In this document: one piece after another, positions 16,654 through 20,322 of the stretch
How the letters are laid out: each line of letters starts with the position of its first letter
Position numbering within the stretch: the stretch's first letter is position 1
Source of the DNA: Coriobacteriia bacterium
GTDB lineage: Bacteria; Actinomycetota; Coriobacteriia; Anaerosomatales; Anaerosomataceae
Direction of reading: 5' to 3'
NCBI GenBank assembly: GCA_030652115.1
Contig: JAUSBK010000001.1
Coordinates: 120,254-184,253 of the forward strand
Length of the DNA stretch: 64,000 nucleotides
Made by a program: the position numbers and the translations under genes
Notes under the pieces: model-generated
What the model saw: only the letters and a program-made list of their open reading frames with translations
Database searches by the model: none
What the model was told of the DNA's origin: nothing

Positions 16654-16728
16654 TGGAGCGGGTGACGAGACTCGAACTCGCGACACATGGCTTGGGAAGC
16701 CAATGCTCTACCACTGAGCTACACCCGC
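16654..16728 (-). tRNA. tRNA-Gly (anticodon CCC)
   Basis: The cloverleaf is clear on the minus strand: acceptor GCGGGTG with CACCCGC, D arm GCTC/GAGC, anticodon loop TTCCCAA with anticodon CCC (reads GGG), T arm with TTCGAGT, discriminator T and an encoded CCA. The outermost anticodon-stem pair is T-T rather than a Watson-Crick pair. Confidence 0.95.
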
Positions 16729-16770
16729 ACGCGTCTGCATAGTTTAGGTCACCGCTCTGAGGGCGGCAAA

Positions 16771-17355
16771 TCAGCGGCGACGAGGCTCGGTGCCGCGCTG
16801 CCAGAGCCGGTTGACCAGGTAGAGGCCGAGCGCCAGCAGTGCGAGACCGGCCGCCCAGGCGACCTTGGCGGGCCGGATCTCATCGACGACCTCGCGGCCC
16901 GTCTGCACGACGGTGAGCGAGGTCGCATGGATTTCGAGATCTCCCCCGTGCTCCGGACACGCCGCGTTGAAGGTGCCGGTGACCTGGACGATGTCGCCCT
17001 CGTGCTTGTAGTCGCCGTAGTACTCGATGTCCTCCACGAGCGCGGCGGGCAGCCACACCGCCATCCCGCTGTTGTAGCCGCCGAGCTGAGCGCCCTCTTC
17101 GACGTTCTCAAGGTAGTAGGCGTCATCGTTGATGTGCAGCCACGCGTTGTCTCCACGGACCATCGCCTCGCCGATGACCTCACCGGTGAAGGTGACCTCG
17201 GTCCCGTCGTGCTCCTTCGGCTCTTCCACGAGTCCGGCACTCGACGGCGAGTTCGGACTGGACTGAGGCGTGCCCTCGGCCCGGCAGCCCACCGTGAGAG
17301 CGAGCAGTCCGAGCAGTGTCGCCGCCACGAGGGCACGTGCCAGCCGGGTGCTCAT
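16771..17355 (-). CDS. lipoprotein with OB-fold-like domain and C-terminal membrane helix
   Basis: About 194 residues. A signal peptide ends LTVG-C near residue 24 (lipobox). From about 45 to 150, VTFTGEVIGEAM, WLHINDDAYY and GDIVQVTGTF look like an OB fold of the type seen in nucleic-acid or small-molecule binders. A second hydrophobic helix (about 163-182) is followed by basic residues, so the protein may be held at both ends. Its start overlaps the trkH stop by four bases (ATGA). A role with the Trk system is suggested by this coupling only. The family is not recognised by name. Confidence 0.75.
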   Translation of the reverse strand: MSTRLARALVAATLLGLLALTVGCRAEGTPQSSPNSPSSAGLVEEPKEHDGTEVTFTGEVIGEAMVRGDNAWLHINDDAYYLENVEEGAQLGGYNSGMAVWLPAALVEDIEYYGDYKHEGDIVQVTGTFNAACPEHGGDLEIHATSLTVVQTGREVVDEIRPAKVAWAAGLALLALGLYLVNRLWQRGTEPRRR

Positions 17356-18857
17356 CGACGACCCCTGATCATGGTAACGATGTAGCCGCCGAGCGCGAAG
17401 ACGGACATGAACTCCAGGCGGCCGAGCCACATGGCAGCGATGTAGAGCACCTTCATGACATCGGGCATGGCCGGGGAGGTCACGCCGCACGAAAGTCCGG
17501 TGTTCGACCCTGCCGACACGCCCTCGAATGCCGCCTGCAGAAAGTCGTAGCCGTAGAAGGCGCCGACGATGGCGTTCAGTCCGTAGAGCGCCAGGTAGGC
17601 GATCGTGATCGTCATCGTCGTGCGCACGAGCGGGTCCTCGAGAAAGGCATCCTTGATGTGATGGTACTTCGAGGCCACAACGGCGCGCTCCGGAGAGAGC
17701 ACTCTGCGGATGTCCTGCATGAACGCCTTGAAGATGATGCCGATGCGCATGCCCTTGATGCCGCCGGCCGTCGAGCATGCCGAGGCGCCGATAGCCATCG
17801 CCACGGTCGTGGCGATGAGCCCGACCGGGCCCCACTGCGTGACGAATGCACGGGAGTAGATTGTCGAGAACCCGGTGGTGGTGTGCCCGGATGCGAGCTG
17901 GTAGAAGGCCTTGCGGAAGAGCGTCATCGCGTCGGGGTATACGCCGGCCTTTGCGAGTGCGAAGGTCGCGATCAGTACGGTGAGCGAGAGTGTGATAGCG
18001 AACGAGACGGTCTCGATGTTGCGCAGGATCTCCTTGCGCTTCCCGGTCCACACGGCCCAGTGAAGCGCGAAGTTGAAGGAGCCGGCCACGAAGATGATGA
18101 TGGTCACGATCTCGTAGGACAGCGCGTGATAGTAGAACGTGTTGTACGAACTCGGCGCAAAGCCACCGGTCGACCATGCGCCCATGTACACCCACAGCCC
18201 GTGAAGCGCGGCACGCAGCGGCTCCTGGCCGAGCGCGAGTCCTGCCACGGCCAGCACGACCGTGCCCACAGCGAGCCACGTGAGCGACACGAGCCAGATG
18301 GCGCGCGCGGTCTGCACCACATTCGGCAGGAGCCGTTCCTCCTTGCCCTCGCTCGCATACACCTTGTACGCGCCGGCGGTGCCCTTGAACAGAAACGTGA
18401 GCGCGATGACGACGATTCCCTGGCCGCCCGCGTACGTGAGCAGGTGTCGCCACATGTTCATGCCGTGCGAGAGATGGTCCAGGTCCTGCAACAGATACAG
18501 TCCTGTCGTCGTGTAGCCGCTCATCACGTCGAACATCGCGTCCAGATACGAGCCTTCGTGTCCCGAGAGCCAGTGCGGCATCGCGCCCAGAATGGTCGCC
18601 ACGATCCACGACCCGGACGCGACCACCATGCCGTGGCTCCAACTCAGGTCGCGGTCCGTGCGACAAACGATCTGCGTACCGAAACCGAAGATGAGACACA
18701 GCGACATGCCGATCACGAAGTCGAGGACCGTGTCCCACTCACCCAACGCCAGCGACGTGAGCATCGGCAAAGTCATCAGCAGGCCGACGCCGATGATGAT
18801 CTTGCCGGTGTACTTGCCGATGACGAGGTGATCGTCGCGGCGAGGGCGCAGCAGCAT
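17352..18857 (-). CDS. trkH: Trk potassium uptake protein TrkH
   Basis: 501-residue polytopic membrane protein that moves K+ with TrkA gating. The repeated pore loops are visible, such as MSGYTTTGL near residue 113, STGGFAPS, ASGHTTTGF and GSNTGLSCGVTSP, each with the TTG/NTG-type filter. The ATG at 18857 lies one base after the stop of a 49-codon gene, in a line with two trkA genes. A lipoprotein gene overlaps its 3' end. Confidence 0.96.
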   Translation of the reverse strand: MLLRPRRDDHLVIGKYTGKIIIGVGLLMTLPMLTSLALGEWDTVLDFVIGMSLCLIFGFGTQIVCRTDRDLSWSHGMVVASGSWIVATILGAMPHWLSGHEGSYLDAMFDVMSGYTTTGLYLLQDLDHLSHGMNMWRHLLTYAGGQGIVVIALTFLFKGTAGAYKVYASEGKEERLLPNVVQTARAIWLVSLTWLAVGTVVLAVAGLALGQEPLRAALHGLWVYMGAWSTGGFAPSSYNTFYYHALSYEIVTIIIFVAGSFNFALHWAVWTGKRKEILRNIETVSFAITLSLTVLIATFALAKAGVYPDAMTLFRKAFYQLASGHTTTGFSTIYSRAFVTQWGPVGLIATTVAMAIGASACSTAGGIKGMRIGIIFKAFMQDIRRVLSPERAVVASKYHHIKDAFLEDPLVRTTMTITIAYLALYGLNAIVGAFYGYDFLQAAFEGVSAGSNTGLSCGVTSPAMPDVMKVLYIAAMWLGRLEFMSVFALGGYIVTMIRGRR

Positions 18858-18858
18858 C

Positions 18859-19008
18859 CTAGAGGACCGCCTTCGCTACAAGCGCCATGACGAATGCGAT
18901 GAGCGTCAGACCGAGGATGAATGCCGCCTCGGTCACGAGGCCGCCGATGTACTCGGGCCAGTTCTCCCGACTGGTGAGCCCGCGCTCACTGGGCTGTTTG
19001 CCGCGCAT
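18859..19008 (-). CDS. small single-span membrane peptide in the Trk operon
   Basis: 49 residues. It begins MRGKQPSERGLTSRENWPEY, polar and basic, then continues into one hydrophobic helix (about residues 24-44) and ends AKAVL. GGGAG lies nine bases before the ATG. It fills the space between trkA and trkH with three and one free bases on either side, so a real, translated gene is likely. I do not know a family. By position it may be a small accessory subunit of TrkH, which is inference. Confidence 0.65.
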   Translation of the reverse strand: MRGKQPSERGLTSRENWPEYIGGLVTEAAFILGLTLIAFVMALVAKAVL

Positions 19009-19011
19009 CGC

Positions 19012-19677
19012 CTAGGCTCCCGTCAGCGCCTTCTTGAGCGCGCGCTCGTGTTGCACGTTGGTGAACGCGATGACCACGTCGCCCGGCTGCATCTCGGTGT
19101 CTCCGTGAACGGGCATCGCATCGTCCCCGCGGATGAGCGCAACGATAAGGCAGTCCACCGGGAGGTTGAGGTCGACCACCTTCTTGCCACAGACGACGCA
19201 CCGGTCGGTGGGCAGCTCGATCTCGACGATGGCCATGTTCCCCTTGCGCAGCGCCATGAGCGTGCGGATGTCGCCGATCGTGGCCTCTTCTTCGATGAGG
19301 CGGCTGATGATCGTCGTCGAGGAGATCGCCTCGACACCGAGCGCGTGGAAGATGTGCTCGTTCTTCGGGTTGTTCACGCGCGCGACCGCCCTCGGCACGC
19401 CGAAGGCGACCTTGGCGAGCTGGCAGGCGACGAGGTTGTCGTCATCGTCTCCGGTAGCCGCCACGAAGACGTCCGCCCGGCTGAGGCCGGCGTCCTCGAG
19501 GTAGATCGAGTCGCAGCCGTCGCCGTGGATGATGAGCGGCTCCCCGGGCAGCTCGGTGACGAGCTTGCGGGCGATCTCCTCACGCTTCTCGATCACGGCA
19601 ACCGCGTGACCGTTCTCGAGGAGCTGCCGGGCCAGGTACGACGCCACCTTGCCGCCGCCGTTGATAACGACGTACAT
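19012..19677 (-). CDS. trkA: TrkA-type potassium channel regulator, RCK domain (second copy)
   Basis: 221 residues: an N-terminal RCK/TrkA-N Rossmann domain (VVINGGGKVASYLARQL, IHGDGCD, AATGDDDDNL) and a C-terminal TrkA-C domain (about 135-221). It binds NAD(H) or ATP-type nucleotides and gates TrkH from the cytosol. DRCVVCGKKV in the C-domain adds a CxxC not usual for the family. It is directly downstream of the other TrkA-like gene with three bases between them, so a heteromeric ring is possible. Confidence 0.93.
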   Translation of the reverse strand: MYVVINGGGKVASYLARQLLENGHAVAVIEKREEIARKLVTELPGEPLIIHGDGCDSIYLEDAGLSRADVFVAATGDDDDNLVACQLAKVAFGVPRAVARVNNPKNEHIFHALGVEAISSTTIISRLIEEEATIGDIRTLMALRKGNMAIVEIELPTDRCVVCGKKVVDLNLPVDCLIVALIRGDDAMPVHGDTEMQPGDVVIAFTNVQHERALKKALTGA

Positions 19678-19680
19678 CGC

Positions 19681-20322
19681 TCACTCCTCCATGAAGCGCT
19701 CGACTTTGGGGAAGACCTCGTCCTTGACCGCGGCGAAGATGATGTCGCCCTGATGGAGCACCATCTGCGGCTCAGGGATGTGGGCGACCCGCCCGCGGAC
19801 GACCGAGAAGATACGGAAGCGACGCTCGATCTCGATCTCGTCCACCTGCTTCCCCTCGACCGCTGATCCGCCTTTGAACTCGATCACCTCGATATCGTCG
19901 ATGCTGTTGAGGTGGTGTCCGTGACCGGACTTGATCTTCTCCATGAGCGACTCGGCCACGAGCGTGGTCCCGCAGACGTAGTCGAGGTCCAGCAGCTGGT
20001 AGGTGCGCTCCCGCACGGGATTGTAGAGACGCGCCACCACGTGCCGCACGCCGAAGATGGTGCGCGCCACCTCGGCGGCCATGAGGTTCGTGTTGTCGAG
20101 GTCGGTCGTGGCCGCGAAGGCATCAGCCTCCCGGATGCCGGCCTCCTCAAGAACTTCTTCATCGAAGCCGAGACCGAGAATGGTGACGCCATTGAACGTG
20201 CCGCCCAGCCGACGGAAGGCCGACTCGTCGCGGTCGATCACGACGACGTTGTGCCCCTCGACCGAGAGCATCATGGCGAGTTGTGAGCCCACACGCCCAC
20301 ATCCCACAACGACGATGTTCAT
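19681..20322 (-). CDS. trkA: TrkA-type potassium channel regulator, RCK domain (first copy)
   Basis: 213 residues with VVVGCGRVGSQLAMMLS at the nucleotide-binding N-terminus, IDRDE at the strand-2 end and ATTDLDNTNL, then a TrkA-C domain ending in FAAVKDEVFP. It is the first gene of the five-gene minus-strand operon trkA-trkA-peptide-trkH-lipoprotein. Two separate single-RCK genes replace the single double-RCK TrkA of Escherichia coli. Confidence 0.94.
   Translation of the reverse strand: MNIVVVGCGRVGSQLAMMLSVEGHNVVVIDRDESAFRRLGGTFNGVTILGLGFDEEVLEEAGIREADAFAATTDLDNTNLMAAEVARTIFGVRHVVARLYNPVRERTYQLLDLDYVCGTTLVAESLMEKIKSGHGHHLNSIDDIEVIEFKGGSAVEGKQVDEIEIERRFRIFSVVRGRVAHIPEPQMVLHQGDIIFAAVKDEVFPKVERFMEE

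Follow-up and report, generated by a model that had tools for sequence, protein, structure and literature searches.

A single-span membrane peptide encoded directly before trkH is probably an overlooked part of one branch of TrkH channels

Trk channels are usually taken to consist of TrkH and RCK proteins. KtrE, the accessory protein of a related channel, is a larger protein and is not known to be related to the peptide described here. In the accessible parts of the sources, KdpF is held to stabilise the KdpABC complex (PMC3618439; PMC6255902), KtrE is named as the third subunit of Synechocystis KtrABE (PMC9898762) and AcrZ is described as a small single-span protein modulating the transporter AcrB (PMC7267776). 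In the accessible part of PMC6987127 no mention of a small or third subunit was found, and no small TrkH subunit was found in the literature searched, a search whose reach stopped short of most subscription journals.

The window analysed here is a stretch of 64,000 nucleotides from a Coriobacteriia bacterium. It contains the following features:

20322-19681, minus strand (19681..20322): trkA-like RCK protein, 213 aa (TrkA_N + TrkA_C)
19677-19012, minus strand (19012..19677): trkA-like RCK protein, 221 aa (TrkA_N + TrkA_C)
19008-18859, minus strand (18859..19008): gene of the 49-aa single-span peptide, ATG start, 49 codons, MRGKQPSERGLTSRENWPEYIGGLVTEAAFILGLTLIAFVMALVAKAVL
18942-18928, minus strand (18928..18942): G-x-x-x-E motif (G-L-V-T-E), codons 23-27 of the peptide gene
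18857-17352, minus strand (17352..18857): trkH, 501 aa, Pfam TrkH E=9e-40, in the peptide-bearing branch of the TrkH tree
17355-16771, minus strand (16771..17355): exported OB-like protein, 194 aa, with signal peptide, OB-like domain and C-terminal helix

The order on the minus strand is trkA, trkA, peptide ORF, trkH and exported protein, with gaps of 3, 3 and 1 nt followed by an ATGA overlap between trkH and the gene of the exported protein, as read directly from the sequence. A first-pass annotation had described a 49-codon ORF fitting between trkA and trkH with three and one bases to spare, and the coordinates confirm it: the free bases are 19009-19011 on the trkA side and 18858 on the trkH side. 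As to the ribosome site of its own that had been claimed for the ORF, a GGGAG motif lies 8 nt 5' of the ATG, within the 3' end of trkA. A tRNA-like stretch was seen by reading 3' of the operon (16655-16730).

The trkH product belongs to the TrkH family (137 bits against PF02386, cut-off 27), and in its TrkH fold and RCK partners the locus resembles the Vibrio Trk system (TrkH-TrkA), from which it differs in that the matched solved TrkH chains have no counterpart of the peptide. The one hydrophobic helix of the first-pass annotation was found again by reading and by hydropathy scan, as a single stretch in the C-terminal half of the peptide. A single membrane-spanning helix, seen in both the scan and the structure models, is what is expected of a KdpF-type protein. 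Like KdpF, the peptide is short, spans the membrane once and has its gene immediately 5' of that of a channel subunit; the two channel subunits, KdpA and TrkH, belong to the same superfamily and have a common fold (KdpA chain 5mrw_A against the fusion model described below, Z 14.7). It differs from KdpF in its partner, TrkH, being encoded before trkH and not in a kdpFABC operon (no kdp gene was noticed among the genes read), in its longer N-terminal tail and in its G-x-x-x-E motif, which to our knowledge KdpF lacks. AcrZ is similar as a small single-span modulator, but AcrB is of another transporter family. The comparison with KdpF made in the first-pass annotation holds as an analogy of role, but membership of the KdpF family is not supported: a Pfam search with 81 peptides gave no match at E<=0.01, Pfam presumably including a KdpF model, and the gene lies before trkH. 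There was likewise no credible NCBIfam or PDB match to the peptides; single peptides were matched by three NCBIfam families, one peptide per family (E 0.0045-0.0062), which was taken as chance.

Judged by its pattern of conservation, the peptide ORF is a real, conserved gene whose frame is under selection. Among five near relatives, aligned with no gaps, pN was lower than pS in 10/10 pairs in the peptide frame (pN 0.16-0.37, pS 0.37-0.66), the outcome of the synonymous-site check that had been suggested earlier, and no consistent pN < pS was found in the two shifted frames. Differences at codon positions 1, 2 and 3 numbered 159, 109 and 231 in these relatives. The proposed check in related genomes also came out in its favour: a protein search of 41 near genomes found the peptide in 21 of them (22 places, E <= 0.0067), in all 22 places with trkA sequence before it and trkH after it. 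M1, W17, Y20, G23, E27 and A42 are invariant in the 19-row peptide alignment.

A profile made from these 19 rows matched 33 of 396 class genomes in 34 places, of which 33 adjoin a TrkH; the exception (G211) is a weak match with an internal stop. Conversely, TrkH orthologues of at least 55% identity were found in 45 places of the same class sample, two of them 3' fragments, and all 43 places with a 5' end have the peptide or a fusion (33 by profile, 10 by reading DNA). A TrkH scan of named genomes, a set which shares many genomes with the unnamed one and is not independent of it, gave 75 loci: 69 with a separate peptide, one with a fused peptide, one (L170) with none and four lacking upstream DNA. 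The broad 81-row profile matched 45 places in 296 phylum genomes; all 30 places tested lie directly before TrkH, eight more lie before a TrkH by coordinates and seven fell outside the check. The genome of the window itself has two trkH genes and exactly two matches (E <= 0.001), so placed that each trkH is preceded by one. By record title, the relatives that carry the peptide are Coriobacteriia, one of them Anaerosomatales; sparse further carriers bear titles of other Actinomycetota and of Deltaproteobacteria, Spirochaetes, Auribacterota and Firmicutes groups. The E-type profile finds few matches beyond Actinomycetota: for the phyla to which G489, G490 and G488 belong the counts are 1/118, 1/90 and 5/91 genomes, where both single matches and two of the five are seed genomes. 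A tblastn search of plasmids with TrkH gave only matches below 60% identity (<=32% among the matches listed).

In most of these loci the stop of the peptide and the start of trkH abut or overlap (ATGA), and in the window trkH itself has, by reading, little Shine-Dalgarno sequence. Both observations would suit a translational coupler or leader, an ORF that merely brings ribosomes to trkH and whose product is dispensable. We consider this unlikely, since the peptide is under amino-acid selection, is fused to TrkH in one genome and is still present in L132, L154, L165 and L175, where gaps of about 40-150 nt make tight coupling improbable. Its motif is also nearly invariant: G is present in 77/81 and E in 80/81 rows of a selected set in which E-type peptides predominate. 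Apart from this Glu the helix has no conserved charge, and one other charged residue occurs in it across all 81 rows.

Judged from a tree of 176 TrkH proteins, the peptide co-segregates with one TrkH branch. This branch has 114 tips, of which 105 have a peptide (93 with the Glu, 12 one-span without it), one has the in-frame fusion and eight have no peptide, against none of the 62 tips outside it; with midpoint rooting its support is weak (0.41), that of its two main parts 1.0 and 0.95, and that of the group of 117 formed with three further peptide-less tips 1.0. Five of the eight peptide-less tips (L108, L109, L165, L326 and L330) are additional copies that have a second TrkH, or a piece of one, next to them. 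L109 has three tandem trkH genes, two of them directly preceded by a clear peptide, and a single exported OB-like gene after the last. Before counting, 13 script rows were set to 'no' by hand (L170, L214, L217, L222, L236, L251, L277, L224, L211, L326, L330, L338 and the first copy of L109), and L306 was scored 'no' although its peptide is visible by eye. Paralogous TrkHs of the same class (<=43% identity) were dropped as negative controls, the peptide being present there too: the script proposed a candidate in 20 of 21 loci, and the remaining one (L192/L306) has a peptide without the usual start codon. The negative controls that stand are the TrkHs outside the branch. Among 30 phylum control loci three have the peptide, all inside the branch; the candidate at L222 was judged incidental. 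Script candidates at L236 and L277, from 34 Bacillota and other loci, lie inside longer frames and were rejected.

The peptide of the window is of the E-type, with one helix, G23 and E27, and encoded before trkH. The paralogue-type peptide (SPYxHWxxGLxxE) aligned to the window type with an hhalign probability of 70% over 14 columns covering the motif, whereas the E-less peptides aligned weakly to the rest (probability 18% and 25%). One-span E-less peptides of 42-49 aa were also seen before trkH in other class families (L315-L319), with gaps of at most about 50 nt.

The architecture upstream of the peptide varies. Most loci have the order trkA-trkA-peptide-trkH. In a second set (L091-L093 and L096-L101) the place of the two RCK genes is taken by a KdpD/KdpE-like pair and by a TrkA_N-only protein, which lacks TrkA_C, giving the order KdpD-like kinase, KdpE-like regulator, TrkA_N-only protein, peptide, trkH; these labels were assigned by reading and pairwise match. 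The kinase pair upstream in some loci brings up the idea that the peptide acts chiefly as a regulator of the RCK proteins or of a KdpD-like kinase and not of the channel, for which there is a precedent in the accessible part of a report of KdpF binding KdpD in a two-hybrid test (PMC3618439). We regard this as decidedly unlikely: most loci have no kinase nearby, the peptide is always beside trkH in the phylum places tested, and it persists in L094 and L095, upstream of which no RCK gene turned up (L094 being a short contig).

In L030 (the same as record L144) the peptide is fused in frame to TrkH, with loss of the first 11 TrkH residues; this single genome also has an unfused copy. The TrkH N-terminus is cytoplasmic in known TrkH. 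Two structure models of moderate confidence were obtained (mean pLDDT 66.9 and 67.6). The fusion model (pLDDT 67.6) has the TrkH fold (4j9u_A, Z 27.7, 438 residues, rmsd 4.0), and the best structural matches of the models were TrkH, then KtrB, HKT and KdpA. The peptide was modelled as one helix (14-51 or 18-67; block pLDDT about 80), and the peptide-TrkH junction is weak in both models. Residues 48-538 of the fusion model align to residues 1-484 of solved TrkH; the alignment starts after the peptide, so that nothing in solved TrkH corresponds to the peptide part.

The fusion could also be read the other way, the peptide being a detached first TrkH helix, left over from the division of a longer ancestral TrkH, and not an added subunit. 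In L111-L113 and L141 the trkH ATG follows in frame after the peptide stop codon, which fits such a split; readthrough there would give a natural fusion. This origin appears very improbable, however, as solved TrkH begins at a residue aligning after the peptide, and the fusion occupies just one tip within the branch of the TrkH tree, which suggests that it is derived. That the ORF arose by chance, or has a function unrelated to TrkH, is hardly credible: it is short, hydrophobic, low in information and without a family match, but a chance ORF is refuted by the frame selection, the branch-wide presence and the position before trkH.

The orientation clues for the peptide conflict in the sequences compared. 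The N-flank is more basic than the C-flank (net charge +2.5 vs +0.8), which favours N-inside; the fusion joins the C-end of the peptide to the TrkH N-terminus, which favours C-inside. MAFFT alignment A3 put the free peptides in mid-TrkH and was left unused; alignment A4, and probably also A5, misplaces the final 6-7 residues of the peptide.

The gene after trkH, whose tie to the channel the first-pass annotation missed, encodes an exported protein with a signal peptide, a possible lipobox (LTVGC), an OB-like domain (matched by Pfam tRNA_anti-codon at E=0.0081, short of the cut-off) and, by reading, a C-terminal helix. C133, H136 and H143 are invariant in nine rows of this family. Searches with three or four members gave no Pfam or NCBIfam family over curated cut-off and no PDB match. 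By its distribution, the exported OB-like protein is an equally faithful partner of this TrkH branch. It was found in 72 of the 75 named loci, 71 times directly after trkH and once before it, the latter in L170, the locus without peptide. In mixed TrkH loci it was found in 13/74, precisely the peptide carriers, and it lies downstream of paralogues and E-less types in 18/19 usable regions.

Taken together, these comparisons indicate that the peptide probably belongs to the channel and has been overlooked. The earlier proposal of a small K+ channel subunit is the best reading, favoured by the confinement to one TrkH branch, the persistence where RCK genes are replaced or did not turn up upstream and the one fusion; with good though not full confidence, we propose that the peptide is a single-span subunit dedicated to one TrkH subfamily, with a role like that of KdpF. 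Its translation would immediately precede that of TrkH, as the stop abuts or overlaps the start, and it would bind TrkH early, inserting next to the channel. There it may pack against the N-terminal hairpin (D0) of TrkH, which the fusion touches, with the intramembrane Glu making a polar contact. Its likely job would be in assembly, in stability or in setting how far the channel is closed or open, in line with the stabilising part ascribed to KdpF in the Kdp complex.

KdpC is thought to sit over the outer mouth of KdpA. Purely by analogy, the set of peptide, channel and exported protein recalls KdpF-KdpA-KdpC minus KdpB. More tentatively, and with the balance somewhat against it, the branch, which occurs mainly in Actinomycetota and only sparsely elsewhere, might form a Kdp-like three-part membrane complex without ATPase, composed of the TrkH channel, the KdpF-like peptide and the outer OB-like protein, and gated by RCK proteins. 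The OB-like protein, anchored by its C-terminal helix, would then lie over the outer mouth as proposed for KdpC on KdpA, perhaps with a metal site formed by the invariant Cys and two His.

Annotation readily overlooks short genes such as the peptide ORF, and for the exported partner no match rises above a curated family cut-off. If this TrkH branch has two further faithful partners, the set of proteins to be expressed in studies of it would change. The branch would also allow a comparison with Kdp, that is, of the accessory parts of a K+ channel subunit with and without an ATPase.
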